Source of the DNA: Chrysophaeum taylorii
Taxonomy: Eukaryota; Sar; Pelagophyceae; Pelagomonadales; Pelagomonadaceae
Assembly: GCA_029834535.1 (NCBI GenBank)
Contig: JAQMWT010000047.1
Coordinates: 124,001 to 188,000, forward strand
Direction: 5' to 3'
Length of the DNA: 64,000 nucleotides
In this document: piece by piece, positions 1 to 64,000 of the stretch
How the letters are laid out: every line of letters begins with the position of its first letter
Position numbering within the stretch: the first letter of the stretch is position 1
Notes under the pieces: model-generated
The model's database searches: none
What the model was told of the DNA's origin: nothing
Seen by the model: only the letters and a program-made list of their open reading frames with translations
Program-made: the position numbers and the translations under genes

Positions 1-256
1 CTCGTCGAAACGCCGAGTGAGCTCGACGAGCAAGCTGCGGCGTAAGAGTCGAATTGATTTTGCATCGAGGTTGTTGACGAATGGATTTGCAATAACCTCA
101 GTGAGAGAGCCAGCAGGACGCGCCCATTCGAATGTGCAAAACCCGCGGGTGTCAAAATGTCCCCACCACTCCGTGAAAAGGGCGAACGGCCGACGACACG
201 CTGGGCACTCGAACGGAGGTGGGTTTCGGGCTCGAAATTCGGTCTGCGGTCATGTA

Positions 257-10918: not shown

Positions 10919-12082
10919 TGAGGTGTCCAGATACCCCCTTACTACTGCGAGGTTGGCACCTCAACCCAAATCTCTCGCACCCCCCCCCCCCACTCATATA
11001 GCTAGAACGGCGCTTCGCTTTCGTCAAAAAATTCGCGATCGGATCCCGTTGGAAACGTGGTTCTCTGGGGCTTCGCGTGATGTGACTGGAACATAAGCCA
11101 CCACGTGCGTGATGCCGCGCGAAAGCGTGCACTCAACGTCCCCCCCGAAATCCCTTGTGCCCCTTATTCTTCGCCTACAATATCGAGATGAGACCGGGTG
11201 ACTACTCGTTTGCGCATCGTAAATTATCTCGCGTGATTCGAACAGCTGCGTCGATCGTTCTCCAGGGTCACACGCGTTTTCGCGCACCCTGTGAAGCCAC
11301 CTCGAGATGGCCACCATAAACTGTTGCCCCCTGGGCTTCCGTCCGTGGATACCACTATCATCCTTCTTCGTGGATCACGCGGCTGCCTTCTTCGACTGCT
11401 GCCGTAGGGGCCGTTGCGGTGCCTCGTCCCATGAGCCCCCATTTTCGCTCGCCCAGGATTTCAAACTGGGCACTTCGAGCTGCTACGCGGAGCAAGCCAT
11501 CTCACAGAAACTCGGTCGCACGCGCCAACTCGAAGACCTCGGGATTAGTCGGCCGCCGTTGGCGACGCGCAGGGCCAATCCCGCGGTGACGAAGGAGCTC
11601 TTCGATCCAGTAGATGGCGCCGAGCTCGACACAGTGCTCTTCCACGCTTGCCAACAACCGGGGGACTCGGGCACCACGTGGTAGCTGGACAGTTTCGCTC
11701 GTTTGGAGGTCTGAGGACCATCATCGCTCTCGCTCGTGCAGAATGAGAGAAATTTTGACGCGATCTCCGAGACACGAGAAGGCTGAAATTGACTGTCTGG
11801 CGAAGCAAGGTGCGATTCGTGACCAGGCGACCTCATCATAATCCACGGCGTTGAGCGTCGACGTTCACGTCGTCGATATGAGTCGTCACCTTGGCCAGTC
11901 CGCCGAGGGCGCAGCGGCCAGCCATCCGTCGTGAGCACTCGTCTCTATAGGACACTCACATTTCATCAAAGCAAAAGCCCTGTGGAGGGCGTCGAGGCGA
12001 GTGAAAGGCGGTGGCACGGCAGACCGCGACACGAGCTCGTATTTGGTTCCGTTAAAAAAAAGGATATTCGCGAGAGTTGAAG
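10919..12082. other. Spacer, overlapping uncertain frames
   Basis: Around 11307-11684 (plus) and 11483-11938 (minus) two frames of 125 and 151 codons overlap. Neither has a recognisable domain, and I found no splice model that extends either one. A poly-C run lies at about 10980-10990. Confidence 0.35.
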
Positions 12083-12865
12083 ATGTTGGCCTTGGTTGCG
12101 TCGGCAGCTCTCCTAAGTCTCGAGGAGATCGGCGCGAAATGGATCACGACGTGTCGCAACGGCGTCGCGTTGAAGAACATCAACGCGTCCTACGTTGACC
12201 GTACGTTGGAGACCACCATCGACAGATCGAACGGGTATGGAGTAACGCTCGAAGAACTGTGGGCGGGCCCAAACGGACGCGGCCTCGTGTTGGTGTCGGG
12301 CGTCGACGGCGCCGCCCTCGGTAAACTCGAGGTCGGCGACACCATAAAGGCCGTCGACGACGTTGATGTGGAGGGTTCGGATTTCGACGCGACTATCGCG
12401 GCGCTCCGAGGCGCCGGCAACCCGGCTAGGGTCACCGTGCAACGCCTCGAACCTCGTCGCGCTGTGGACGTCACCGTCCTGGACCCCGGGGGCGATGTCC
12501 GGGCCTCCTTCCCGCTCCCGGCGGGCGGCAATTTGCGGTTGGGTCTCCTGTTCAACGGACTTCGCGACTCAGAAATCTACGATTCTGAGACGATGCGCTT
12601 CGACGCGATCGCCAACAGCGGCACCAACTGCGGGGGCGAGGGGACCTGCGGGACCTGTCTTGTCGCGGTCGTCGAGGGCGCTGATCGCCTCATCCCGCCC
12701 GCGAGGGTCGAGAAAGCCGCGCTCCTCAAGCAGCGACGACCCCCGCGCTGGCGCTGGAGCTGCCGCTGCAACGTCGGCTTGGACAACCGGGGGGGGGGGC
12801 TCACGGTCATGCTCCGCCCCCAAGCCAACTTCAAAGACGAACAAACCAAAATTACCGGCACCTAG
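12083..12865 (+). CDS. PDZ domain plus [2Fe-2S] ferredoxin fusion
   Basis: The 260-residue protein starts at ATG 12083 with a hydrophobic signal-like N-terminus (MLALVASAALLS). A PDZ-like domain follows at about residues 50-125, containing GRGLVLVSGVDGAA and LEVGDTIKAVDDVDV, the usual carboxylate-loop and second-strand pattern. The C-terminal domain, about 140-250, is a ferredoxin fold. Its cluster ligands are C183-x5-C189-x2-C192 in NCGGEGTCGTCLV, with a fourth cysteine at C227 or C229 (WSCRCNVG). The C-x5-C-x2-C spacing is that of adrenodoxin-type clusters rather than plant-type C-x4-C. The protein presumably carries one electron and docks a partner C-terminus through the PDZ domain. A plastid or secretory location is inferred from the N-terminus only. 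A TTG two codons upstream is in frame but is an unlikely start. Confidence 0.7.
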   Translation: MLALVASAALLSLEEIGAKWITTCRNGVALKNINASYVDRTLETTIDRSNGYGVTLEELWAGPNGRGLVLVSGVDGAALGKLEVGDTIKAVDDVDVEGSDFDATIAALRGAGNPARVTVQRLEPRRAVDVTVLDPGGDVRASFPLPAGGNLRLGLLFNGLRDSEIYDSETMRFDAIANSGTNCGGEGTCGTCLVAVVEGADRLIPPARVEKAALLKQRRPPRWRWSCRCNVGLDNRGGGLTVMLRPQANFKDEQTKITGT

Positions 12866-25569: not shown

Positions 25570-25775
25570 AGGGTTAGGCCACGTTGAACTCACTGACCAG
25601 GTGAACTTATATGAAACTTACTGGGACCACAAGGTGAACTTACTGGGGTTAGAGATTTGGACTAGGTGAACTTACTGACCAGGTGAACTTATACGAAACT
25701 TACTGGGACCAGGTGAGCTTACTGGGGTTAGAGATTGGGACTAGGTGAACTTACTGGCCTGCACTTGTATCTAAT
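25570..25775 (+). repeat. GGTGAACTTACTGG minisatellite, copy 1
   Basis: Degenerate tandem copies of a unit of about 19 bp (core GGTGAACTTACTGGGACCA), interleaved with GGGGTTAGAGATTGGGACTA. It ends GGTGAACTTACTGGCCTGCA followed by CTTGT, exactly as at 43990. The left end abuts a telomere-like GGTTAGGGTTAGG at 25565. Confidence 0.8.
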
Positions 25776-31782: not shown

Positions 31783-32300
31783 CTAGAGATAGAAAATCTA
31801 AATTAGGGTTTGTACCCCCTATTCTAGGGTTAGTTCTCTTAACTTTGCCACCCTTGCCACCCTTTGATTTAAGAAAACGCTGTGTTATTCACACCGACTG
31901 TCCTCGTTTAGGAGACAGACTCATTCGAGGACAGACTACCACTTTTCCCACGCTCTGCTGAAGGGTAACACAGTGTTTTCTTAAATCAAAGGGTGGCAAA
32001 GTTAAGAGAACTAACCCTAGAATAGGGGGTACTAGAGAACAGTAATCACAACTGTGTTACCCTTCAGCGGAGCGTGAGAACAGTGGTAGTCTGTCCTCGA
32101 ATCTGTCTCCTGAACGAGGACTGCCGGTGTGAATAACACAGCGTTTTCTTAAATCAAAGGGTGGCAAAGTTAAAAGAACTAACCCTAGAATAGGGGGTAC
32201 TAGAGAACAGTAATCACAACTGTGTTACCCTTCAGCAGAGCGTGAGAACAGTGGTAGTCTGTCCTCGAATCTGTCTCCTAAACGATGCGAATGACACAGC

Positions 32301-32305
32301 GTTTT
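32301..32305. repeat. Target site duplication GTTTT, left copy
   Basis: GTTTT directly before the 5' LTR, matched by GTTTT at 42784-42788. Neighbouring copies of the host repeat read CAGCGTTTTCTTAAATC without interruption, which confirms the insertion point. Confidence 0.85.
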
Positions 32306-32641
32306 TGTGGCCGCAACTCCCGCCTCCTAAGGCTTACCCCTCTTCTAGGGCCCCCCCTTATCAGGGGCACCCTACTCCGTTCTGATGATGTCAGTTTTTT
32401 TTATGACATCATCTTCCTTTTCCGTGACATGTGTCACCCTGATTTCTGTGTTTCGATAATATCTTAATCATAAAGCAACAGCCGATCCTCAAGTTGTGAG
32501 GACCAGGCACGGAAGTTGTTTGTGGTTGTGTGGCGGGAGAACGGCCATCCTCGTCCAGTGACTCCACCAAGGGCACGGACGCGAGCGGCGAGCCAGGATT
32601 CGAAGGCACGCCAGGTAGGCCTAAATTCTCCTTACGCTACA
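32306..32641 (+). repeat. 5' LTR
   Basis: 336 bp, begins TGTGGCCGCAACTCCC and ends TTACGCTACA. It matches 42445-42783 throughout except about a dozen substitutions and a length change in a C-run. Confidence 0.9.
32384..32413. promoter_or_regulatory. Palindrome with CRE/bZIP-like half sites in the LTR
   Basis: GATGATGTCA and its reverse complement TGACATCATC are separated by a 10-bp T-rich spacer. The same palindrome is conserved in the 3' LTR at 42526-42555. TGATGTCA and TGACATCA are bZIP (CREB/ATF-type) sites, so it may be the LTR enhancer. An RNA hairpin is the alternative. Confidence 0.45.
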
Positions 32642-32643
32642 GG

Positions 32644-32664
32644 TGGTGGAGGAATACGAGATTC
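32644..32664 (+). other. Possible primer-binding site
   Basis: TGGTGGAGGAATACGAGATT begins two bases after the 5' LTR. It starts with TGG, as the complement of a tRNA 3' CCA end must, and GATTCGAG further on resembles a T-loop complement. The tRNA is not identified and the spacing is one base off canonical. Confidence 0.3.
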
Positions 32665-33104
32665 GAGCGACCATATCGGTCGCAGCGAACGAGTGCACCT
32701 TGCATTCTCTACACGGTCCGGACAAGCCGTGCGCGCGCCCTGATCAAGCGCGCCGACGAAGATTTCCAGGAGGACCACTGCCGTGGGAAAGTTCGCCGGC
32801 CGGATACGTTAGTCGTCGGAGGTGACGACGCGCGATTCGGTTCTAGCCGAGCGCAACCCGGGTACCGCTGCCGCAGGCGAGCGGAGTGAGATCGCAACTC
32901 ACAGAGGCATTGATTGCCGGGCAGAAACGAATTCTGCCGCCCACCGGACTGATAGATCTGTCGGTGGAAGACGCACGTGACGACGATATTACGCGTGTCG
33001 TGGACGAGTAGAAGTCCCAGAGTCGAAGGAGCACGAGAACGACGACGACTCAACCATTTTGGACCCGCTCTGATCTCGGCCGATTAGAACGAGCCAGAGC
33101 CGAT

Positions 33105-33767
33105 ATGGAAGACGATGATGCTGCCGACGAGCAGATGCGATATGAAGAACCGCCAAGCCGTCAGGATGAGACGAGCGAGCGGAATGACGATGATGATGAT
33201 GATGATGATGAAGAAGAGCACGACACTGAAGTTGACAACGAGGAAGAAGAGCTAGACTACAACACCGGCGAACCGACGGAGAGACCGTCGGGAGGACGAC
33301 CGACAGCCCCGTCGACGCGTGCACGACCCCCGGACGCAACGAGAATGAGCGAGTTCTACGAGGCTCATTTGCGGGCGTTATGTGGAGAAAACGAACGTTC
33401 GCAGGAAAGACTTTTGCAACAGATAACGGAAGAAAACGATCGAAAGGAGCGGCTACAACGGAAGGAGGCAGAAGAATTACGAGAGCAAGTGCGGAGAGCC
33501 AACGCTCGAGCAGACGACCTCCAAGATCAAGAAAATTCGTTGACACGTGAAAGAGACGAATTGCGTACGCCGAGTCGATCAAGGCGAGCGAGTAGCCCGG
33601 GGTCCCGAGCTGAGGAAGAGCCGCCAACTACACGATCACGCGCGAAAGCTAGGAAGCCGCGCTATGAAGACGACGATGACGAAGAAAAGGAGGAGACGCG
33701 TGGCGACGGAAGGATCGACACCCAAGAGTTCTTGATGAGCTTCACGGATCGGTTCGCCGGCGCGTAG
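33105..33767 (+). CDS. Retrotransposon N-terminal acidic/coiled-coil Gag region
   Basis: 220 residues start at ATG 33105, with long Asp/Glu runs (about 25-55) and then a charged coiled coil (about 90-150). The frame ends at TAG 33765. The next frame, shifted by -1, is open through this point (it reads VAKHDRNKERR from 33764) and continues directly into the main Gag frame. The two are therefore probably one protein broken by a base change, or joined by -1 ribosomal frameshifting. No slippery heptamer was recognised. No known domain was identified. Confidence 0.55.
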   Translation: MEDDDAADEQMRYEEPPSRQDETSERNDDDDDDDDEEEHDTEVDNEEEELDYNTGEPTERPSGGRPTAPSTRARPPDATRMSEFYEAHLRALCGENERSQERLLQQITEENDRKERLQRKEAEELREQVRRANARADDLQDQENSLTRERDELRTPSRSRRASSPGSRAEEEPPTTRSRAKARKPRYEDDDDEEKEETRGDGRIDTQEFLMSFTDRFAGA

Positions 33768-33883
33768 CCAAACACGATCGCAACAAGGAGCGGCGATCAA
33801 CCTCCGGACTAAAGACCGAAACTTTTAAACTGGTTCTTGATGGACGCGATCAGGACCAGTTCGATTTAGATGCGGGCGCGGTG

Positions 33884-35047
33884 ATGAGTACGTTAGCCGA
33901 AGACAATTTTAGCTTGGAGAAACTACGGTACCTGCTGCCCGCGACCCTGCGCGACGCAGTCGCACCGATTTTTCGAGAACACTTAAAGAAGTACGAAGAC
34001 CTGTGTAAAGATCTCGATCAACCAGCGTCTTTTTATTTACGTCGGGATACCGACGATGAGGAGTACGGTTCAGTGGTACGACGATTACGACGATTGAACG
34101 AGAAGTATTGCCTCAAGATTTTGAAATATTTCCGAGAGAGTTGCCCACTGCCGGTGACGGCAGAGGAATCGCTACGAAAGTTGCAATGCACGACCCAAGC
34201 GACCGTTCCGAAACGCTCTGGGGAACGCCACGTGCATACGTATTGCATTAAATTTCAGCAAGAGGCCATGGCGTACTGTTCTGTGGCCAATCGGGATCTC
34301 AACGATGTGGAGATCATCTCTTACTTGATACGTGGACTGGAGTCCAGCGAATTGAAATCCCGCGTGCGAACCATGCGCAGCGGGCACCCGACGACGTATA
34401 AGACGTTTACGTCTACGTTGTCATTGATTACACGGCTCGAGAACGATTTCGCGACAGCCATGGCGGAGAAGAACAGCCGAAATTCAACGAACCCATCGGG
34501 CGGGAAGCCGCAGAAGCCACCGTCTGGACGCGGAGGACGGGCGCTCGCCTCGGGAACGAAAGATAAAACGACGAAATATGAAGCATTACGCCTCGAAGAG
34601 AATCCGAAAAAGTGGTTCGAGAGGACATGCAAGGATTGTGGGTTTTTCTTAACGACCCACGACAAGGATGAACACGGGAACCGGGTCATTTGCAACCGCG
34701 AGCCTGATGACTATTATGTGGCGATGTGTAAATACATCGAAGACGGCAAAAAGCCCATCTCGCTAGGACGATGGGAGAGCCGACAAAAGAGACATAATCA
34801 TTCGCGTGACGACGGCAGTTCTAATGCCACCCTCGGTTCGAGCGCTGTTCACGATATTCAGAGCAGGCTCAATGATATGGGCACGCAGCTGACCACGGTT
34901 GTGGATTCCGTGAAGCACTTGAAAGATGGACACGGCCGATCGTCTTCGACACGACCGGGCCGTCGAGATAGCCGGAGCCCCAGACGCCGCGACAAGAGCC
35001 GTAGGCAGCTCGCGCCAGCGCCGACGGAAAGACAGCCGGAGCTCTAG
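33884..35047 (+). CDS. Retrotransposon Gag-like protein
   Basis: The ATG is at 33884, and the same frame is open back to about 33764. The sequence after the start (SLEKLRYLLPATLRDAVAPI) and the helical middle (about residues 100-200, with YCIKFQQEAMAY and IISYLIRGLESSELKSRVR) has the pattern of Ty3/gypsy Gag capsid regions. A Cys/His cluster (CKDCGFFLTTHDKDEHGNR, then a later Cys pair) near residue 250 could be a divergent zinc-binding nucleocapsid. It is not a standard CCHC knuckle. The C-terminus is Arg/Ser-rich. It ends at an in-frame TAG (35045-35047) followed by CAG, after which the same frame stays open. Confidence 0.6.
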   Translation: MSTLAEDNFSLEKLRYLLPATLRDAVAPIFREHLKKYEDLCKDLDQPASFYLRRDTDDEEYGSVVRRLRRLNEKYCLKILKYFRESCPLPVTAEESLRKLQCTTQATVPKRSGERHVHTYCIKFQQEAMAYCSVANRDLNDVEIISYLIRGLESSELKSRVRTMRSGHPTTYKTFTSTLSLITRLENDFATAMAEKNSRNSTNPSGGKPQKPPSGRGGRALASGTKDKTTKYEALRLEENPKKWFERTCKDCGFFLTTHDKDEHGNRVICNREPDDYYVAMCKYIEDGKKPISLGRWESRQKRHNHSRDDGSSNATLGSSAVHDIQSRLNDMGTQLTTVVDSVKHLKDGHGRSSSTRPGRRDSRSPRRRDKSRRQLAPAPTERQPEL

Positions 35048-35071
35048 CAGACATTCACGCCGCCGCCGGCG

Positions 35072-36232
35072 ATGAAGATCTCGCGATCGAAATTCGGACA
35101 ATGGTCGTTACGGGAAGACTCGGGACATTCGTCTGCAACGTTCGCGTTTACGACCCCTTGCCGTCAACAGTTACCATTGGGAGTGATGTACTCGAACACG
35201 GACACCCGCCCCGACGACGCAGCCGACGCCCTCGCCGCGGCCGCATTCGAAGATCGTGCTCGCCCGCCGCCGGACGAGCCACCCAACGAAGTGCTGTCCG
35301 ATCGTCGGTCTTTGGCACAGATTTATGAGGAGATGTCGAGCGATGAACTCGAAGATTCGAGCGATGACCTCGAAACTCCACGATACTGGGAAGGCGATTC
35401 AGATTCGGAAGATGAAGAAGCTACACCTTGTGAACCAGTGTCCGCGATAAGGTTACTTGGCGAGTCGTCCACGGACGACGCAAAGTTTGTTTTTGACGAG
35501 GAAGCCCTCGACGCTATCGGCTTATCTTTGGACCCTCCAGGGACGACCTTTAGCGACCGAACTGTCTGTGAGCCAGACATGGATTTCTGCAGTGATAGCT
35601 CGGATGATCATTCGACGGACGAGACGATGACCATCGCGAGTGAAGCAGACGACGATCTTACGATAGAGTTGACGTCGGGGACGACGCCATCTTTTCCTGC
35701 GGACCCCCCCGAAACGGTTTCGGCCACGACGGATCGAGCCACGGACACGCCGCCGGAAGAAAAGGATAGATTTAAGAAGAAGATTAGCAGCGTTCTGGAT
35801 TGGGACGAAGACGAGTCGACGTGGAACCTGCGGGATTGGTGGGCAAGAACTCGGAACTTCTTGCTAAAGAAGCCACCAGAACAACCGCTCAGCTACGGAC
35901 TCGAAGCCGCAGCCGACACGGAGCCGATCGCCGATGATGGTGATGATCAACCAACGACGAATGAATCTACGGATGCATTCTGGAAAGACGAAATGAATGA
36001 GTTATGGGAGAGGTCCTTTGCTTCCAGGAAAATATAAGATCGGGATCCCCTACCAGCACTGATTCCCGCCGAGATTGTCCTGGAGGAAGAGCGGAAGCCG
36101 CCTGATAAAGAGGCTGCCACGAGCGTTACGTCTATGACGCCAACAACAGATGATACGAGAGCTCAAGCCGCGGTATCGATGCCCAACCCGGAGATGGGCG
36201 AGTCAGAGCCCGATGTGCTCACACTTCGTTGA
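35072..36232 (+). CDS. Acidic linker region between Gag and Pol
   Basis: This is the same frame as the Gag region after the TAG at 35045. It runs 321 codons to TAA 36035, and the same frame is open again after it to TGA 36230. It is very rich in Asp, Glu, Ser and Thr with a few tryptophans near the end (DWDEDESTWNLRDWWA). No enzymatic motif was seen. Two isolated stops in an otherwise open, compositionally uniform frame suggest point mutations in one long ancestral Gag-Pol frame rather than separate genes. Confidence 0.4.
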
Positions 36233-39200
36233 CGCCGCGAGATGGCAGGACGATCGAAGATGATTTGGTCACCCTCAGTTGCTTAGATACGGGTACTCTT
36301 ACGTTTATGGCCTGTCACATCTACAGGAATCGTGACGGACCGAAATTCTCGACGACCATCGGCGTCGATGGATTGGCGGATGTTTCTTATATTTGCCGAG
36401 AAATGGTCAGAAAGTTGGCCAGAGATCAGTTGATTTTCGATGAAGGCGAACTTCCGATTAAGCGCAAGCTGTACGGATCAGGGTTGAATACGACAACGAT
36501 CTTTCGTTGGATCGCGATTCGGGTCGCCCTCGCCGACTATATCGCCGCCCCCATTGTCGCTATTGTGGCCGATACGAACTATCTGTTCCTGTTTGGAGGG
36601 CGCGATATACGAGTTTTAGGAGCCGTCGTGGACTACCCCCACGATCGAATATGTTTTTATCGAACCCAAGTTGTCTACGGGCGCAAGAAGATTAAATTCA
36701 AGGATGAACGAATTGATGCACCCATCGTGGCCTTTCGATCTACTTACGATCGAGATCCGATAACCGTGCCGATTTACAATCATCAACACGATGCCTTTCG
36801 GAAGAGTCTCGACCTGGTCAAGACTCGAATTTACGCTCGTTTGAGCACGATTAAAGATCTCCGAAGCCCGCCGCCGGAACGAACGGTAGCCTTGGCTACT
36901 CGGGGACATGCTACGACCAAATTCTCCCCAGCTCCGGGAGAAGACGCGCGAGAAGTAGTGGCTTACGCTGCGCGCACGCTTCAAATCGAGCCCGGTCGAA
37001 CTTACAATCTACCGGTTATTTTGTCGAAACCTATGGAAATGGGACAGGTTTTCGTCGCCACGTTTTCTGAGAACGAGCAGTTGGGAGTCGTCGAAGGAAT
37101 GTGTTCTTCTTGCGAAGAGCACGACCGGTCCGCTGCTCGGGTTGCGGTTACTGCCGCGGAAGAAGTGCCGACGGTCTTCACTCAAGGCGAAGTCCTCGCG
37201 ATTGGCGATATCGTTCGGTACGAAGATGAGTTGAACGTCTCTACGATCAACGAACTTACGAAAGAATGTGAAGAAGGATACGACAAGGGGAGCCTTTCTT
37301 TCACCGTTTCCGTCGCTTGTCATTTGACGCATTGCGACGCGTCTCCCCCGCCGATGTTGCTGAGCACGGCGCAGAAGGACGCTACGACCGCTATGGCGGA
37401 CAAGTCCTCCCTCAAACGACCCGAAGGCGACGACGATTTTGCTCGAAGGTCGGAAGAAGATGAAAAGAAGTGCCGCGAGATCACCGAAGCGGAGATCCGC
37501 CGCCGATACGAAAAGGTTCAATGGCTTCCAATCACTTATCGCAAGGTGGTGATGCTGTTCAGTGGAGCCGGGGGCAGTACTTTAGGCCTCCAACGAGCCA
37601 ACGAAATGTGTGGGACGTCGTTTCGGGTCGTGCTAGCACTCGATGCGTCGGACACCGCAAACCAGATCCACCATAAGAATTTTCCGAACATTCCTGTGGT
37701 GCAGCACACACTGTGTGGTCGCTATGTTACAACCTTACGGTTGATTGAATCTTATTTACCTTACGCGGAATGGTCGTCGTCGATGTGTGTCGCATCGCCA
37801 CCCTGCGTACACTCCGCTCTGTGCAACTTGACTTCCAGAGATGTCGGGAAGGGAGTCACCGCTACCCACTGGACGATGAAATTATGCAAGATGGCTGGTT
37901 TCTTCATGTGGTTAATAGAGCAGGAGGCCTCGATTATTTCTTACGTTGCACGTTTGCACCCTTACGTGTACGTCGTCAATTTTTATGACATAACGCCCAG
38001 TTTGATGAGCTGTCGCGTGCGATTGTTGGTTTCCAGCCACCCGCTCCATTCGCGCGCAGTTCCGAAGACTTGCAAGAATATGCAGCATGAGTTCGCCGCA
38101 GCGCTTGGCTACGCCGACGAACGACATTTACTTCAGATGAACAATATAGGATCATCGCGAGCCGCGACAGACGCAGCTTACACCGCTACGCGTGTCCCGC
38201 TTCGCGTAGGACCGCACCGTTCCGATTACAGATCTCTGAATCTGAAAATGACTTCGGAGTTGCTGACAATGCCCCTTGATTTTGATTGGGCCGGCTTCTC
38301 CAGGACGACCTCGATGAAACACTTGGCGTCCGTCGTGCCACCAGACACGATGACCTTATCAGTACTCGATCTGCACAACTCTATGACCAAGGATTTTCAC
38401 CTGAGCGGCGAAGCTTTACCGTCAGCGTTGAGTCCTGCAGACCGACCGTTTGATTATTATTTGCAAATTGATGAAACCACCCTTCGTCACGTACAAGTTC
38501 CGCTGTTAAACACGCGCACACGTGTCGTAAGATGGATGTCGACTGATGATCTTCAAGATCGCACCAAATGGAAACCTCCAGAGGTACCGTTGATTCCGCC
38601 TGCAACAGATGAGCCGGGGACGTCTCATGCTTCTTCTGCTGCCCTCCCCCGACAACCAAATTTGGACGTTCCGCCAGATCCTGAGCGAGATTGGGAACCG
38701 AAGATTAAGAGCGAGCAGAGTGTCAAAGGCGAGAGGATCAACAAAAGCCACCCGGAAGTGAGACTAAAATATGAGAAGAAGTTCGATGTGCCATGGAAAG
38801 ATGCGCCGCGCGATGCTGAGGGTGCACCGCTGCCGCAAACTCCTGAGCATGTCAAGGACAACGAAGCAATGGAAGTTCAAGTTCCTACGAAGGAAAAAGT
38901 TGATAAGGTTGTTCAGGAGTTAGGAATTCCTGACAATCCGCACTTAGAGGATGAGGCGAATCTGATGCTCCGTCACTGTGTGCAATATTCATGGGCCTTT
39001 TTCGACCCGATTATGAGACCTGTGGACTCACCTCCTGTGTCTCTACGATTCAAAGACGCGAATCCGCGACCGATTAAGATGGCGCCCTACCGATTGACGC
39101 CTGCGAAGCTCGATTGTCTCCGCAAGCAGATCAGCGAGTGGTGCCGGGATGGAGTCATTCGTCCGGCCAACTCACCTTGGGGCTTTCCTGTGTTGATGCT

Positions 39201-41022
39201 TCCGAAGAAAGGAGCTGAGATTGGAACGTCAAACGCGTTCCGTGCTGCAGTTGACTTACGTCAGCTCAACGATCAATTGGTCAATGACAGTTGGCCGAAC
39301 ATTCGACAAGATGATGCTTTAGCTTTTCTCGCTATGCGACGATGGCGGACATGCATTGATATTAGATGGGGATACCACAACCTTCGTCTGGATCCGGCAG
39401 CGCAAGACGCTGTCACGATGGTTAGCCCACTTGGCGCTCATAGTTTCTTGCGATTACCTCTAGGTGTGGAGACGGCCGGAGCTCTTTTCTGCAAGCAAAT
39501 GGCGAGCGACCTTTCGAAATGGATGTATCGAGACTTGGTTGCGTTTGTTGACGATATTATGATGGGATCTGACGATCTTCATCGACATTTACAAGTTTTG
39601 ATCGAAGTGATGTGTCATTTGGCACAGAGAGGGTACAGCGGTCGAACCGCGAAGTTCCACCTTCTCAAGGATGATATAGAATTTCTGGGACACATCTCGA
39701 CCCCAGAAGGCTTGAAGCCGAATCCGAAGACGCTGGAAGCACTGCAGAAGATGCCGATTCCAGGTACTTTACCGCACACTTCCCCGAAGACCCAGATACG
39801 CTCTTTCATCGGCATGAGTAATTACTGCCGGCGATATGTGAAGGGCTACTCGCAGATCGTGGAACCGCTAAGACGATTATGCCTCGAAGGGGTAAAGTTC
39901 GAATGGACGCCCGAGTGTCAGAAAGCTTGGGATACGATTATTGAGGCTTTGGTTGATTCCAGAGGAGTCTACCACCCCGATTATGATCTGCCTTTTCAGA
40001 TTCGATCCGATGCTCCCAAGGATGGAGTTGGAGCGTATCTCTTCCAGATTGTCGAAGTCAAGGACGATGCCGGAAGAGTGACTCGAGAAGAACGAGTGAC
40101 TGAATACTGGAGCCGAGCTGTGCCGAAGGAGATGCGCAATTACGAGCCCCGTCGGCTAGAGCTGCTGGCAGTTATACTTTCTCTAGAGCACTTTCGAGCC
40201 CACATCGAAGGACACCGGACTGTTTTGGAGGCCGATCGCCGAAATTTGACGTTTTTACGTAAGGCGACGCACTCGTCTGGGCAGCTTGCTCGTTGGGCGA
40301 TGCGCCTCGCCAATTTTGACCCTGAACTTGGTTACAAGCCGGGAAAGTCACCGGGAATGAGTATCCCTGACTGTCTCTCCCGCAATCCGATAGATCATGT
40401 CATCGAGACTGACGAGTTTGGAGAGCCTTTGAACCACGCTTATCTGGTGTTCCAAGAGCTTCCCCGACCTGTTGATGACCGAGGAATTCCCGCTTCCGGT
40501 TGCCACTTCATAATGTCGTTTGTTACGACCGAACTGCCGGAAGACGAAGACGAAGACCCTGAAAAGGACCCGATGAAATTGGCTACGTCTCACGCTACGA
40601 GACAACGTCGGAAGAACCGTACGCGCGATGAGCCGCAGATCATCAAGGACGCGGCCGCTTACAAAGATTATATCGTTATGATACCCGATAATATGACGCT
40701 CGCTGAGATCGCACGCGAGCAAGAATCTGATGCTACTTGCGAGGATATTCGCTACCGAATGGCCCAAGGTCAGACGCCGCGACGTTCCCGAGCGAACGAA
40801 CGATTCGAAGTCGTTATAGACGTTCTTTACAGCATTTTTGCTAATTTGCACCCGATGATTGTGCATCTGCTACGTTGCGTAAGCGCATTATTCGACTCTA
40901 CCATGACCCTCCGGTTAACGGTGGTCATATGGGACGTCACAGTACCGTCAAGGCTATCCAAGAACGATTTTGGTGGCCCCACATGTCGAACGAAGTTGGA
41001 GTCTTCATTGCTGAATGTTTAG
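36229..41022 (+). CDS. Pol: protease-like, C5 DNA methyltransferase, reverse transcriptase, RNase H
   Basis: A frame of 1597 codons that begins at a TTG, so the real start lies upstream through a frame change. Residues 14-150 resemble a retropepsin, but the active-site segment reads VDGLADVSYI (46-55) instead of DTGAS. Residues about 436-715 are a cytosine-5 methyltransferase. Motif I is MLFSGAGGSTLGL (442-454), which binds S-adenosylmethionine. Motif IV is SPPC with the catalytic Cys526. A motif VI glutamate candidate is E564, motif VIII is R596-V-R598, and a motif X-like SVVPP lies near 701. RT covers about 900-1160, with the catalytic FVDD at 1106-1109. RNase H starts near 1261 (SDAPKDGVGA). 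The last 50 or so codons (from about 40865) are out of frame with the integrase that follows. Confidence 0.85.
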   Translation: MTPRDGRTIEDDLVTLSCLDTGTLTFMACHIYRNRDGPKFSTTIGVDGLADVSYICREMVRKLARDQLIFDEGELPIKRKLYGSGLNTTTIFRWIAIRVALADYIAAPIVAIVADTNYLFLFGGRDIRVLGAVVDYPHDRICFYRTQVVYGRKKIKFKDERIDAPIVAFRSTYDRDPITVPIYNHQHDAFRKSLDLVKTRIYARLSTIKDLRSPPPERTVALATRGHATTKFSPAPGEDAREVVAYAARTLQIEPGRTYNLPVILSKPMEMGQVFVATFSENEQLGVVEGMCSSCEEHDRSAARVAVTAAEEVPTVFTQGEVLAIGDIVRYEDELNVSTINELTKECEEGYDKGSLSFTVSVACHLTHCDASPPPMLLSTAQKDATTAMADKSSLKRPEGDDDFARRSEEDEKKCREITEAEIRRRYEKVQWLPITYRKVVMLFSGAGGSTLGLQRANEMCGTSFRVVLALDASDTANQIHHKNFPNIPVVQHTLCGRYVTTLRLIESYLPYAEWSSSMCVASPPCVHSALCNLTSRDVGKGVTATHWTMKLCKMAGFFMWLIEQEASIISYVARLHPYVYVVNFYDITPSLMSCRVRLLVSSHPLHSRAVPKTCKNMQHEFAAALGYADERHLLQMNNIGSSRAATDAAYTATRVPLRVGPHRSDYRSLNLKMTSELLTMPLDFDWAGFSRTTSMKHLASVVPPDTMTLSVLDLHNSMTKDFHLSGEALPSALSPADRPFDYYLQIDETTLRHVQVPLLNTRTRVVRWMSTDDLQDRTKWKPPEVPLIPPATDEPGTSHASSAALPRQPNLDVPPDPERDWEPKIKSEQSVKGERINKSHPEVRLKYEKKFDVPWKDAPRDAEGAPLPQTPEHVKDNEAMEVQVPTKEKVDKVVQELGIPDNPHLEDEANLMLRHCVQYSWAFFDPIMRPVDSPPVSLRFKDANPRPIKMAPYRLTPAKLDCLRKQISEWCRDGVIRPANSPWGFPVLMLPKKGAEIGTSNAFRAAVDLRQLNDQLVNDSWPNIRQDDALAFLAMRRWRTCIDIRWGYHNLRLDPAAQDAVTMVSPLGAHSFLRLPLGVETAGALFCKQMASDLSKWMYRDLVAFVDDIMMGSDDLHRHLQVLIEVMCHLAQRGYSGRTAKFHLLKDDIEFLGHISTPEGLKPNPKTLEALQKMPIPGTLPHTSPKTQIRSFIGMSNYCRRYVKGYSQIVEPLRRLCLEGVKFEWTPECQKAWDTIIEALVDSRGVYHPDYDLPFQIRSDAPKDGVGAYLFQIVEVKDDAGRVTREERVTEYWSRAVPKEMRNYEPRRLELLAVILSLEHFRAHIEGHRTVLEADRRNLTFLRKATHSSGQLARWAMRLANFDPELGYKPGKSPGMSIPDCLSRNPIDHVIETDEFGEPLNHAYLVFQELPRPVDDRGIPASGCHFIMSFVTTELPEDEDEDPEKDPMKLATSHATRQRRKNRTRDEPQIIKDAAAYKDYIVMIPDNMTLAEIAREQESDATCEDIRYRMAQGQTPRRSRANERFEVVIDVLYSIFANLHPMIVHLLRCVSALFDSTMTLRLTVVIWDVTVPSRLSKNDFGGPTCRTKLESSLLNV
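37530..38385 (+). other. DNA (cytosine-5) methyltransferase domain inside Pol
   Basis: This is the coding extent of the methyltransferase domain. The ordered motifs are I (FSGAGGSTLGLQRA), II-like acidic turn (ALDASDTANQIHHKNFP), IV (VASPPCVHSA), VI-like (FFMWLIEQEASII), VIII (SCRVRLLVSS), IX-like (LTMPLDFDWAGFS) and X-like (HLASVVPPDTM). Both flanking regions are unrelated to known methyltransferase accessory domains. The target recognition region between VIII and IX is short (about 70 residues), as in small Dcm- or DNMT2-like enzymes. No stop or frame break interrupts it. Confidence 0.85.
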
Positions 41023-42527
41023 TTTGCCAGAAAGCTCGTACTCCGGAGCCGAAACGAGCTGGACTCTTGCAGCAGCCCGTCTACGATGGTGATGGTGCTG
41101 TTCTTTGCATGGATTTATTTGGACCCTTGCCCAGCGCTGGTCCCGAGACGTATCTTCTAGTATTTTTTGATCCGTTCTCGCATTTCTTGATTAAGGATGT
41201 TTTGAACGATAAGACTGCTGAGTCTGTCCTCGAGTCTTTTGTCCTTAACATTCTCCTCAAGGGCTACTTGCCCCAGATGATTCGTACCGACAACGGTAAA
41301 GAGTTCGTGAACAAGTTGATGCGCGAGTTTTGCCATCTCTTCAACACACGATACCAAACTACGATTCCTTATCATGCCCAGTCGAACCCGGCTGAGCGTG
41401 TAAACCGATTTATCAAGGCCTTCCTCCGTGCTTGCCTTCAGGGCCGGAACATCACGGATTGGCCCGACTTTGCCCATTATATTGCGTTTTGTTACAACCG
41501 CAAGTTTATTCCAGGCACGCAGATTTCTCCCTTTATGCTGGGCCTGAACCGTCAGCCGATGTTACCTACTGATTACACGCTCATGGACTTTGATACGCGA
41601 CTATTGCCGAAGACTCGCTCTGATGCAGTTGCCGAAGCTCGTGAACGATTGAAGTATTATACGAAGATCGTCCGCGAGGCTCGTGATAAAGCTTTGAAGA
41701 AACAACGATTAGCCTACAATGCCGATCATGTTGACGTTGAATACAAGGAAGGGTCGCACGTTTTGCTCTACATTCCTTTCCTTCAGAACAAACTTCGACC
41801 GGAATGGCGAGGTCCGTTTATTATCAAGGAACGCCTTTCCCCGGTCACCTATAGGACTGAGTCTCTCGACTCTCCGCCCGAAGAACGACGTGTTCATGTT
41901 AGTCAGATCACGCCTGTGATGGTACCTCCGATCGTTGATCAAACCATCCGCAAACCCGAAGAAACCTTCCGTGATGATTATCAGCACGGTAGGTTTGTTG
42001 TTTTCCGGATTCCTGACCGGAAGCGCTCTGATTGGCGCAAGAAGATTTATGTTGCTGAAGTTCACGAGCCTCACGATTACCAAAATGATCGTGTTGCTCT
42101 ACATTTCTACTCCGATTTGGGTCCGAACGATGATGTCGCTTATTTCAAGCCGACCTCTCACCTTTCGCACCGCAAACTCAAGCCCAAGTTCAAGGACGTT
42201 GACGGTCGAAGTTTCACCGACAAGTCCAGAATTTCCTCCAACACAACTCCTTGTGTCACGGATTTCGCTCCGCACGATATTGAAGTGTTGATCCCCAAGT
42301 TTACTTTACGTAGTGGCCGAGTTCCTGAACCGGTCATCACCCGCGTTTACCAGAAGATTCGTTCACGAGATGCTCGTAAGGTGAAGCCGCGCTCCTCGCG
42401 CCAGCACCTCGCTGGGGCAGCTCGAATTCTTACCAGGGGAGTCCTGTGGCGGCAACTGCCGCCTCCTAAGGCTTACCTCTCTTCTAGCCCCCCCCCCCCT
42501 TATCAGGGGCACCCTACTCCGTCATGA
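40845..42527 (+). CDS. Retrotransposon integrase with extra C-terminal domain
   Basis: The frame is open from 40845. The zinc-binding HHCC module is at the start (YHDPPVNGGHMGRHST, then AECLVCQKA). The D,D-35-E catalytic core follows: MDLFGPLP, RTDNGKEF and NPAERVNRF. After the core comes the GPY/F-like module (RPEWRGPFIIKERLSPVTYR), typical of gypsy integrases. A further region of about 60 residues (GRFVVFRIPDRKRSDWRKKI to SDLGPNDDVAYFKP) has a beta-rich, SH3/Tudor-like look and may target chromatin in place of a chromodomain. The frame is shifted relative to the RT frame near 40865, consistent with loss of one base just before the HHCC module. The core residues themselves are intact. Confidence 0.82.
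   Translation, partial: FAPDDCASATLRKRIIRLYHDPPVNGGHMGRHSTVKAIQERFWWPHMSNEVGVFIAECLVCQKARTPEPKRAGLLQQPVYDGDGAVLCMDLFGPLPSAGPETYLLVFFDPFSHFLIKDVLNDKTAESVLESFVLNILLKGYLPQMIRTDNGKEFVNKLMREFCHLFNTRYQTTIPYHAQSNPAERVNRFIKAFLRACLQGRNITDWPDFAHYIAFCYNRKFIPGTQISPFMLGLNRQPMLPTDYTLMDFDTRLLPKTRSDAVAEARERLKYYTKIVREARDKALKKQRLAYNADHVDVEYKEGSHVLLYIPFLQNKLRPEWRGPFIIKERLSPVTYRTESLDSPPEERRVHVSQITPVMVPPIVDQTIRKPEETFRDDYQHGRFVVFRIPDRKRSDWRKKIYVAEVHEPHDYQNDRVALHFYSDLGPNDDVAYFKPTSHLSHRKLKPKFKDVDGRSFTDKSRISSNTTPCVTDFAPHDIEVLIPKFTLRSGRVPEPVITRVYQKIRSRDARKVKPRSSRQHLAGAARILTRGVLWRQLPPPKAYLSSSPPPPYQGHPTPS
42434..42444 (+). other. Possible polypurine tract
   Basis: AGGGGAG lies just before the 3' LTR, followed by TCC. 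It is short for a polypurine tract, so the call is weak. Confidence 0.25.
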
Positions 42528-42783
42528 TGATGTCAGTTTTTTTTATGACATCATCTTCCTTTTCCGTGACATGTGTCACCCTGATTTCTGTGTTTCGATG
42601 ATATCTTAATCATAAAGCAACAGCCGATCCTCAAGTTGTGAGGACCAGGCACGGAAGTTGTTTGTGGTTGTGTGGCGGGAGAACGGCCATCCTCGTCCAG
42701 TGACTCCATCAAGGGCAAGGACGCGAGCGGCGAGCCAGGATTCGAAGGCACGCCAGGTAGGCCTAAATCCCCCTTACGCCACA
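42445..42783 (+). repeat. 3' LTR
   Basis: 339 bp from TGTGGCGGCAACTGCC to TTACGCCACA. The right-hand GTTTT target duplication follows at 42784-42788. Confidence 0.9.
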
Positions 42784-42967
42784 GTTTTCTTAAATCAAAG
42801 GGTGGCAAAGTTAAGAGAACTAGCCCTAGAATAGGGGGTACTAACCCTAATTTAGATTTTCTATCTCTAGCGTCGTCTTCTCGGGTCTTTCTTCATGACC
42901 ACGCCTGCCGCTACTCTCGTTTCTTCATTTCTTTTCCTTCCCCTTGTCCTAACTACTAATCGACAGA

Positions 42968-43664: not shown

Positions 43665-43990
43665 AGGTGAACTTACTGGGACCAGGTGAACTTACTGGGG
43701 TTTGAGATTGGGACTAGGTGAGCTGAGTGACCAGGTGAAACTGGGACCAGGTGAACATACTGGGGCTTTTAGAGTAAAGGGTTTTTAGAGTAAACTTAAA
43801 GGTTGGCGGCGCGTGCGGATCAAAGCAGCTTAGATTGGCGGGGGCGAGAGCGACGAGCTCAAAGGAGTTGGTGTGAGCTAGGTGAACTTACTGACCAGGT
43901 GAACTTATATGAAACTTACTGGGACCAGACTTGAACTTACTGGGGTTAGAGATTGGGAGTAGGTGAACTTACTGGCCTGCACTTGTCCTC
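43665..43990 (+). repeat. GGTGAACTTACTGG minisatellite, copy 2
   Basis: Same unit and same spacer (GGGGTTWGAGATTGGGA) as at 25570. It is interrupted at 43760-43870 by a short unrelated stretch, and ends GGTGAACTTACTGGCCTGCA plus CTTGTCC. Confidence 0.8.
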
Positions 43991-61880: not shown

Positions 61881-62689
61881 TGTTTTGCCACTGTCGTCAA
61901 CTTCTACCGCAGTCCATTCGAGTACGACGAGCGAAGCTCGCCGCTTGCTCCTCCAACGTTGGCCCATATGGCAACTTCGTTCTTGCGAATGCGAAAACGG
62001 GCCACTTTCTTATCTGCCACAGCAGGCTGGCATACAGCAGCCTGGTCTACCCGTGTTCGTTCCTTACACGGCTGGCGCGTCCGAAGTCTTCCATTTTCGC
62101 GTACAGGACGCGGTCGTGCCCATGGCAACTTGCTCGCACCACAACAACCAAACACCCACGTTCGCATCAAACCTGTTTACGCCTGTTTTTGCTTCTGTCG
62201 ACTCCGACCATCGTCATAACCTGGTCACCATGCACCATGCAACATACCTGCCCAACGGCCACGTTCTCATCAGACGTCTGATACACCGCCATCATATATA
62301 CCAGCCTGTGTTCCCGCTTTCTTTACCCCGCTGCGATTCTCAGTGGCACCAATCGTCTAACGCACGTCATCCCAGGCACTTTTGTCGCTATTGTTCTTCA
62401 GACCTCGATTTTGCTGACAGTTTCACTTACCCGATTTCCTGCAATGTTAACCACCGAAGGCACTTCAACGTTGTTCTGACTTTCTCGAATCACGCTTCCA
62501 AGCTCTCGTCTATTGTTGCCCCATTGTCACCTGTTCTTGCTGTTGCCCGATTGTCACCTGTTCTTCCGCTGTTGCCCCCTTGTTTGCTGTTGCCCCCTTG
62601 CCCCCTGTGTTTGATGAGAATGCGCCGGTTTCACTGGGACTGATCACCCCATCACGTGAACCGACCATTCTACGAGCTCATGAACTCCG

Positions 62690-62775
62690 ACGCACCAAAG
62701 AGAGAAAACAACAGAAATTGCAAAAGAGAGAAAACAACAGAAAGTGCAAAAGAGAGAAAACAACAGAAAGTGCAA
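62690..62775 (+). repeat. 26-bp tandem repeat, three copies
   Basis: AAAAGAGAGAAAACAACAGA plus AAKTGC is repeated three times with one variable base. Confidence 0.8.
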
Positions 62776-62990
62776 AACAAAGTCGAGCCAAACGGAGCCG
62801 ACCGCGCAAAGTCGACCAAAGCGCATTACAACAACCAACAAACTTTCATACTGGCGTTTGTCAACAACGCAATGTCGATTCTGTTTCATCCTGTCACAAT
62901 GTCGATTCTGTTTCCTCTGTCGCTTCTGTTTCCTTCTGTAACTCTTTGTATGTCTCTTATGTTAGCTTTCGTTTGTTAGTTCATTATGTC

Positions 62991-64000
62991 TTCCTTCCCC
63001 TTTGTTTAGCTAACACCCTTGTTGATCCCCATGCACATGTTTATTACTCTGCTTCCGAAGAAACCTCTCAGTATTCATACATTGACGAAACTACCGTTAC
63101 TTCCACCCATTTACGTGAAGATTTAGCTCAGACCAATCCTGAGCGTCCTGGCTGGTTGCAAGCCATCGCCAAAGAGTATCGCTCCCTTGGTCAGCTTGGT
63201 TGCTGGGATGTTGTTCGCCTTCCTTCGATGATGATGATGTTTCTGGCAACATTTGTACTCTCAAGTGGATCCTCCGCAAGAAGTATGACTCTGGCCGCTT
63301 CAAATCGTACAAGGCTCGCCTCGTTGTCCGCGGTTACACGCAGGTTCACGGCATTGCTTACCACGACACGTGCCGTCCTGTAGATGTCATCTCTGCTTTC
63401 ATACAAGCCCCTGTCTGGCGTTGCTGTTCACGACTGGGATTTGCATAAGGTGGATGTCAACTCCGCTTTTATCCGAGCTCTCATTGACGAAGACATCTAT
63501 GTCTGGCCACACGAAGGTTATGCTCCTCGCCAACCCACCGATGGTTTCAAAATCATTTACACGCTCCGTCGCTCTTGGTATGGTTGCAAACAAGCTTGTC
63601 GTAATTGGTGGCTTTATTTGGCACGCTTTCTCGTCAATGACTGTGGCTTCGTCCGCGGATCTGGTGACACGTGCAGCTACACACTCATGCTTAAGTCTAC
63701 TGTCGTTCCGCGCCTTGTTCTCGTCGTTGATGATCTTCTTGTGGCGCACCCCCGTTCTTGCATTGGCCATTACCAAGCTCCCTTTTTTGCGTTTTTCAAA
63801 GCCTTCCCACTTCCGTTGGTCTCCGCCTTCCGCGTGCTCGCGCACGTCGCAAGCTCGCTATCTACCAATCCCATGCTATCCGTGAAATCCTCACCGAACA
63901 TCGCTTCATCAACAGGAAACCAGAATTTACTCCCGCTCCCAATGGTTCTTCCTCTTTCTGCGGCTGCTTCTCCTGCACCTGGCTCCCCTGCTCACGTCTT
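62991..64000 (+). pseudogene. Ty1/copia reverse transcriptase, frame-broken and cut by window end
   Basis: Copia Pol segments run in order but in three frames. PGWLQAIAKEYRSLGQLGCW (63140) is the start of the RT domain. TLKWILRKKYDSGRFKSYKA and RLVVRGYTQVHGIAYHDT (63250-63370) follow after a frame change within an ATG repeat at about 63225. After another change near 63400 comes DLHKVDVNSAFIRALIDEDI, then WYGCKQACRNWW and VLVVDDLLVA, with the catalytic VDD (near 63735). The open frame continues to the window edge. The frame breaks mean that this copy cannot make RT as it stands. Confidence 0.8.

Follow-up and report, generated by a model that had tools for sequence, protein, structure and literature searches.

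Why would a transposon carry an enzyme of the silencing machinery, and is the one carried here still an enzyme? A stretch of 64,000 nucleotides of the Chrysophaeum taylorii genome (contig JAQMWT010000047.1, positions 124,001 to 188,000; referred to as the window) harbors a Ty3/gypsy long terminal repeat (LTR) retrotransposon, the Pol polyprotein of which contains a cytosine-5 (C5) methyltransferase-like domain upstream of the reverse transcriptase (RT). An earlier description made from the letters alone, in the following called the sequence-only reading, had proposed a full C5 DNA methyltransferase captured by such an element in a likely stramenopile. The host is indeed a stramenopile (Pelagophyceae), and the capture of a C5-methyltransferase-derived domain is borne out by a match to PF00145, the presence of many copies and purifying selection. 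The word "full" was not confirmed: statistical support is confined to motifs I to IV (aa 22-109 of the domain), and the glutamate of motif VI is absent.

The methyltransferase-like domain of the Ty3/gypsy element

The domain is located between a degenerate protease-like region and the RT, in the frame of RT and RNase H. This shared frame had been claimed before and was recovered, the matches to PF00145, RVT_1 and RNase H all lying within 36229-41022. Of the proposed position between protease and RT, the placement upstream of RT stands, whereas a protease was not found by Pfam (no match across 36229-37488) and consists of a degenerate motif recognized by eye. The profile search suggested as a check gave a significant result: PF00145 matched aa 22-78 of the window domain with 26.7 bits (E 4.6e-6), above the curated cut-off of 22. 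It also matched all 18 aligned gypsy copies at E <= 1; these were hand-chosen from 43 copies and are free of stops, L047 having been dropped for a stop. TIGR00675 aligned with the same N-terminal part (E 0.0012) at 18.5 bits, far under its cut-off of 100.65, and PHROGs 116 and 363 with the part matched by PF00145 (E about 1e-6). All matches from Pfam, NCBIfam and PHROGs are confined to aa 21-78. A DNMT2-type profile, built from the top 120 proteins retrieved with the DNMT2-type gene of the host (L001), extended the alignment to aa 22-109 including the Cys of SPPC (E 1.6e-12 in a five-sequence set). The motif I-III score of the domain was reached by none of 1000 shuffles.

The key residues of the N-terminal part are strongly conserved among the 43 copies. 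In motif I (GxGG), G29, G31 and G32 are invariant, and in motif IV (SPPC) S106, P107 and C109 are found in all copies and P108 in 42. The RVR assigned to motif VIII (QxRxR) lacks profile support and is similarly conserved (R179 and R181 in 43/43, V180 in 42/43). The sequence-only reading had thus placed motif I, the SPPC Cys and RVR on residues that are the same in 42 or 43 of 43 copies, while its "VI-like" motif turned out to be VVN, with the Glu gone.

No usable model was obtained with AlphaFold from the gypsy copies alone (mean predicted local distance difference test score, pLDDT, 33). With DNMT2-type rows added to the input, a block with pLDDT 65-86 was predicted over residues 21-110 (mean of the whole model 46). 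In Foldseek, this model matched DNMT2, DNMT1 and a C5-methyltransferase of a prophage best (E 6e-6 to 9e-6), which is weak support, because the added rows partly impose these matches. On the statistics, the N-terminal third (motifs I to IV) is assigned to the C5-methyltransferases; the rest (VVN, RVR, KMTSELLTMP, SVVPPDTM) is putatively so, by motif reading by eye only.

No relative of the domain was found in IMG/VR, phages, plasmids or GTDB contigs, searches which reach only fairly close relatives; within this scope, a known viral, plasmid-borne or prokaryotic source was considered and rejected. In a database of 5.8 billion proteins, neither the gypsy polyprotein region nor the isolated domain had a match at E <= 0.001.

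Further copies were sought in the C. taylorii assembly (70.8 Mb, 697 contigs). Only the best candidates of each search were scored (gypsy methyltransferase 119 of 1051, RT 150 of 879, an 843-aa stretch 54 of 1929, PF00145 123 of 474, copia methyltransferase 107 of 675), so that copy numbers are lower bounds. The gypsy methyltransferase was detected at no fewer than 119 places, 100 of them at 85-100% and 19 at 77-80% identity, and 92 of the 119 scored places are without a stop in the domain. Two subfamilies exist, both of which carry it. One of the best 150 RT matches is located downstream on the same strand at 75 of the 119 places (median distance 718 bases; 69 of the 75 pairs at 700-725 bases); conversely, 75 of these 150 RT places have one of the 119 scored methyltransferase places upstream. 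Hence neither of the outcomes that the sequence-only reading had named as fatal, no family match or a domain confined to one copy, was found. Element copies at near-identical coordinates of two contigs (G000:C10 and G000:C297) are perhaps haplotypes or an assembly duplicate.

The domain is under purifying selection. When 29 near copies were compared with 11 diverged ones, the proportion of nonsynonymous differences (pN) was 0.114 and that of synonymous differences (pS) 0.683, corresponding to a ratio of nonsynonymous to synonymous substitution rates (dN/dS) of 0.067, with pS near saturation. The most constrained part was aa 98-190 (motifs IV-VIII by eye; dN/dS 0.026). This comparison comprised 41 of the 43 copies (two dropped for length), with L050 outside the near group; the near group includes the window copy, and stop-bearing copies were retained with the stop codon skipped. 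In four diverged copies fetched with their RT, pS between subfamilies was 0.665-0.687 for RT and 0.681-0.690 for the methyltransferase. Both therefore diverged together, and the capture is older than the split of the subfamilies. A module swap between subfamilies, suggested by the RT identity of 93-95% compared to 77-80% (aa) for the methyltransferase in the same copies, was rejected, as RT and methyltransferase have the same pS in these four diverged copies.

In the set of 30 copies closest to that of the window (27 to 30 per segment), dN/dS was 0.161 for the methyltransferase and 0.146 for RT. The protease-like part (36229-36780, 29 copies) gave 0.418, and the two spacers flanking the domain gave 0.470 and 0.408. 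These copies were the best by methyltransferase similarity of the 119 scored, which lowers pN of the methyltransferase and favors a low dN/dS there; the values obtained between subfamilies are less affected by this choice. Inside one subfamily, the domain and RT are under equal constraint, with weakly constrained spacers on either side of the domain. The capture is older than both of the old subfamilies, and purifying selection has retained the domain since.

A methyltransferase in Ty1/copia elements

A second family of methyltransferase-bearing elements is encoded in the same genome. The copy at G000:C96:60900-69800 (L052, L065, L066) is a Ty1/copia element and encodes, in this order, a gag-like open reading frame (ORF), a LIDGGAS protease motif, a methyltransferase, an integrase-like region (rve E 0.003, below the cut-off), RVT_2 (E 3.6e-39) and a copia-like RNase H recognized by eye. 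Its methyltransferase matched PF00145 above the cut-off (35.6 bits, E 9.2e-9) and was found at 114 places, again a lower bound. All of 15 hand-picked copies (L052 and 14 others, most without obvious frame damage) keep the Cys as well as E and N of ENV, at a mean dN/dS of 0.20. In a separate alignment of 15 rows, ENV is missing in L068 and L070 and the PC motif in L068 and L069, apparently through frame damage. At least 57 PF00145 matches were found in the genome. Two are host genes (L001, L002), 43 overlap copia places and two more were read as copia (L003, L005); the other 10 stand outside this sorting.

In the phage search, the copia domain resembled the DNA methyltransferase of an archaeal virus (E 1e-6; one virus, two records), and the BLASTP alignment of the two spans the PC, ENV and motif VIII regions. 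No relative was found in IMG/VR or plasmids. Descent of the gypsy and copia domains from one ancestor was considered and dropped, as no similarity between them was detectable (hhalign probability 1.3%). Judged by these comparisons, the copia enzyme is assigned to a phage type unrelated to the gypsy domain, and apparently two captures, by Ty3/gypsy and by Ty1/copia, took place from different sources. The stretch after the protease is used twice in this genome, the gypsy protease being recognized by eye only.

Possible functions of the gypsy domain

The Pol of LTR elements is packaged together with the element RNA and makes cDNA from it inside the particle. In our judgment there is an even chance that the selected, C5-methyltransferase-derived Pol domain binds S-adenosylmethionine (AdoMet) and methylates cytosine, its likely substrate being the element's own RNA or new cDNA. 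AdoMet would be bound via motif I and cytosine methylated through the conserved Cys of SPPC, with catalysis presumably altered, given the loss of the ENV glutamate. The packaging of Pol with the element RNA, which it copies, makes this RNA or the newly made cDNA within the particle the likely substrate. The element might thereby become more stable, evade a host sensor that detects unmethylated nucleic acid, or be accepted at the integration site. That copia made a second, unrelated capture, likewise behind the protease, suggests a benefit of such an activity for LTR elements of this alga.

A number of results weigh against an active methyltransferase of this kind. The Glu of ENV participates in the catalysis of C5-methyltransferases; VVN stands in its place in all 43 copies of both subfamilies, the window copy included. 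DNMT2 profiles of motifs VI-VIII and IX-X score the gypsy domain no higher than its shuffles, and the IX-X-like stretch has a low pLDDT in the model. This negative is weak because the copia domain, although recognized by Pfam, is missed by these profiles as well: 209 and 427 of 1000 shuffles match or beat the scores of two copia copies with the motif I-III profile, which makes the DNMT2 profiles a poor yardstick for diverged enzymes. A profile search of the PDB gave DNMT2 as the best match at E 0.055. Outside residues 21-110 the AlphaFold model is mostly below pLDDT 50, and its Foldseek matches have TM-scores (template modeling scores) of about 0.2-0.3. At the protein level, the domain has diverged more than RT between subfamilies (pN 0.107-0.121 versus 0.031-0.034). 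C/T differences per site, taken over 30 gypsy copies, amount to 0.0497 at CpG versus 0.0454 at other C, and the observed/expected ratio (o/e) of CpG is 1.31 in the element, with 1.35 and 1.26 in the flanks.

Of the three-base contexts, ACT and CCT show the highest C/T rates, and the four CpG contexts rank 4th, 5th, 8th and 10th of 16. With CpG transitions hardly raised and a CpG o/e of 1.31, there is no clear footprint of lasting CpG methylation in the element body. The LTRs deviate from this, with CpG o/e of 0.76 and 0.70 and TpG/CpA of 1.07 and 1.15, so that their CpG poverty is a possible sign of CpG methylation there. Methylation of RNA, of particle cDNA, in other contexts or combined with efficient repair may still agree with the CpG data. 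The proposal that the element methylates its own or the host's DNA thus found no support in the CpG differences or in motif VI, the CpG-poor LTRs notwithstanding.

A chance chimera or an assembly artefact can practically be dismissed, being refuted by the copy number, the matching pS of RT and methyltransferase in two subfamilies and the constant spacing to RT. The exchange of the motif VI Glu for Val in every copy and the failure of DNMT2 profiles to recognize the C-terminal motifs would also be expected of a pseudoenzyme, which would not methylate but bind AdoMet, S-adenosylhomocysteine or nucleic acid and serve assembly, reverse transcription or integration; strong selection would suit such a structural role as well. 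We regard this as rather unlikely, for the nucleophilic Cys is kept within an almost invariant SPPC, and the exceptional constraint on aa 98-190 is not required by a purely structural role.

Modification of RNA in the manner of DNMT2, with the element RNA or the tRNA primer as substrate, is likewise a minority possibility. DNMT2 gave the best matches in the PDB search and in the profile alignment of aa 22-109, but it retains ENV (six reference rows), Foldseek ranks DNMT1 almost level, and with a reference set of the DNMT2 type only, closeness to DNMT2 over DNMT1, 3 or 5 is not distinguished. Improbable, in our view, is the version put forward in the sequence-only reading, an enzyme that methylates host chromatin or integrated element copies and thereby tunes silencing. 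For it speak the DNMTs of SymbioDIRS elements, which methylate CG de novo in yeast according to the available text of PMC5890265, and the CpG-poor LTRs (each about 340 bases), the TpG/CpA values of which are as decay would give. A host gene, L002 (PF00145 65.4 bits, open frame of 2086 aa), appears DNMT5-like from a RING match below the cut-off and its general look, and could maintain CG methylation; the other host gene, L001, is located on another contig and corresponds to CTAYLR_008533 (100% identical over its length). Against it stand the C/T rates of the 30 copies, without a clear excess at CpG, and a CpG content of the element similar to that of the flanks; this evidence is weak, because decay could be masked by constraint on the coding sequence, by repair or by insertions being recent.

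A wider form of the preferred reading, methylation of element RNA or cDNA, is offered tentatively and with some doubt: in this one alga, each of the two main LTR superfamilies would have acquired a cytosine methyltransferase, from a different source and at the same place in the polyprotein, and kept it by selection, the gypsy version working without the ENV glutamate. If true, the dual capture would suggest that both have the same need for methylated element RNA or cDNA in the particle, and the gypsy enzyme would represent a new catalytic variant or act on a new substrate.

Element structure, neighborhood and known systems

The features of the gypsy element are compiled in the table.

Table. 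Features of the Ty3/gypsy element and its methyltransferase-like domain (positions in the window)
Feature	Position	Strand	Basis or remark
Ty3/gypsy LTR element, whole	32306-42783		LTR pair and flanking duplication
Target-site duplication GTTTT, left	32301..32305	+	by eye
5' LTR (TGTGG...CTACA)	32306..32641	+	alignment with 3' LTR; exact ends by eye
gag-like ORF, 388 aa	33881..35047	+	position only
Acidic ORF	35072..36037	+	ORF list; frame of the gag-like ORF
pol open frame (protease-like, methyltransferase, RT, RNase H), window copy	36229..41022	+	1597 aa
Degenerate retropepsin-like stretch (VDGLADVSYI ... GGRDIRVLGAVVDY)	36364..36780	+	by eye only
C5-methyltransferase-like domain as analysed, 337 aa	37480..38490	+	PF00145 match and selection
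Part with statistical support, from motif I (FSGAGGS) through motif IV (SPPC, Cys 37804-37806)	37543..37806	+	profiles, shuffles, AlphaFold block
Motif VI position, VVN replacing ENV, Glu absent	37972..37980	+	position assigned by eye
RVR, motif VIII-like	38014..38022	+	assignment by eye
Motif IX-like (KMTSELLTMP) and X-like (SVVPPDTM) stretch	38245..38376	+	by eye
Reverse transcriptase RVT_1	39202..39696	+	Pfam E 6.1e-12
RNase H (RT_RNaseH)	39979..40317	+	Pfam E 1e-19
Integrase ORF (H2C2 zinc-binding, rve core)	40875..42527	+	Pfam E 7.6e-17 and 1.1e-11
3' LTR (TGTGG...CCACA)	42445..42783	+	alignment with 5' LTR; exact ends by eye
Target-site duplication GTTTT, right	42784..42788	+	by eye; 5 bp

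The element in the window is a Ty3/gypsy LTR retrotransposon, as had been recognized before: the LTRs are 95.3% identical (340 columns, 13 mismatches, 1 gap opening), GTTTT is found on both sides, and an RT of the RVT_1 type, RNase H and integrase were identified by Pfam in this order. No Pfam family was found above its cut-off for the gag-like ORF, nor any for the highly acidic ORF between it and pol. In the window copy, a stop separates these two ORFs, both are out of frame with pol, and the integrase ORF uses the third frame. Matches to the queried 843-aa stretch end at aa 792 in 46 of 54 cases, while the window copy and four others reach its end, so the pattern of broken frames is not peculiar to this copy. 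Two of the 119 scored methyltransferase places sit within open frames of >3000 aa; some copies thus have nearly the whole coding region in one frame.

The insertion site is a repeat with 168-base spacing, adjacent units of which carry the same site uninterrupted (by eye). This repeat (31783-32285) has long inverted arms, and pieces of it resume to the right of the element (42784-42870). Elsewhere in the window, a minisatellite-like unit (TGAACTTACTGGGGTT...) occurs at 25585-25768 and 43670-43986, 18 kb apart and 89-96% identical. An ORF at 62580-63383 contains a stretch resembling by eye the start of a copia RT (WLQAIAKEYRSLGQLGCWDVV), with no Pfam match at E <= 0.01. A possible fusion of PDZ and 2Fe-2S ferredoxin domains is located at 12077-12865 (Fer2 21.4 bits versus a cut-off of 21; PDZ below its cut-off).

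That retrotransposons can carry cytosine methyltransferases is known from dinoflagellates and Klebsormidium. De Mendoza et al. (2018) described DNMTs in LINE and DIRS elements of Symbiodinium and in a Gypsy element of Klebsormidium, with purifying selection on the retrotransposon DNMTs and CG methylation by the DIRS enzymes in yeast; Symbiodinium Copia elements are without DNMT (PMC5890265, available text, as for all statements on these elements below). A close counterpart is KnitGypsy-Dnmt3 of Klebsormidium nitens, a multi-copy C5-methyltransferase in the Gypsy Pol ORF under purifying selection (Ka/Ks <0.2; PMC5890265). The placement upstream of RT, called unusual in the sequence-only reading, is therefore matched in part: the Klebsormidium domain is also in the Pol ORF, and the copia family of C. 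taylorii also carries its enzyme after the protease. KnitGypsy-Dnmt3 differs in being a DNMT3 member with conserved key residues, whereas the C. taylorii domain has lost the motif VI Glu and is given no DNMT class; furthermore, its repeats are arranged as in DIRS according to a figure legend, in contrast to plain LTRs here, and its host is a charophyte instead of a pelagophyte (PMC5890265). SymbioDIRS-Dnmt3 and SymbioLINE-Dnmt are likewise high-copy C5-methyltransferases borne by retrotransposons, the SymbioLINE domains forming an orphan lineage, but belong to other retrotransposon classes, and the SymbioDIRS enzymes were shown to act on CG in yeast (PMC5890265).

DNMT2, the tRNA(Asp) C38 methyltransferase, aligns with motifs I to IV of the gypsy domain, which differs by the absence of ENV, an alignment ending at aa 109, a C-terminal part unalignable above chance and its location inside a polyprotein. 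The copia family shares with the gypsy family the position between a protease motif (in gypsy read by eye) and the next Pol domain, high copy number and purifying selection, and differs in having ENV and a resemblance to phage and archaeal-virus enzymes, with no detectable relation to the gypsy domain. In orchids, Ty3/gypsy elements with an AlkB N6-methyladenosine (m6A) demethylase have also gained a nucleic-acid-modifying enzyme, with the opposite chemistry and in an additional ORF (PMC9289625, available text).

A paper of 2019 mentions methylase-encoding retrotransposons in stramenopiles in general terms only, as far as its available text goes (PMC6338049). The main text of the C. taylorii genome paper (71 Mbp, 702 contigs), in its available form, contains none of "transpos", "repeat" or "LTR" (PMC10366177). 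Among the top matches of the literature searches, which covered few subscription papers, no report of a methyltransferase-bearing retrotransposon was found for Chrysophaeum or another pelagophyte. What distinguishes this case is the lineage of the host, a motif VI that lost its Glu while under selection, and the parallel capture by copia. Oxford Nanopore and PacBio data were produced for C. taylorii (PMC10366177, available text), so that a check of methylation may need no further sequencing, provided that the raw signal was deposited.

With C. taylorii, a stramenopile joins the lineages whose retrotransposons carry cytosine methyltransferases. A conserved C5-methyltransferase-like domain without the ENV glutamate would be of interest to enzymologists. 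The two apparently unrelated captures after the protease in two superfamilies represent a replicate within one genome, which makes the question why a transposon carries an enzyme of the silencing machinery more testable, since shared features (position, packaging with RT, selection) can be separated from accidents.

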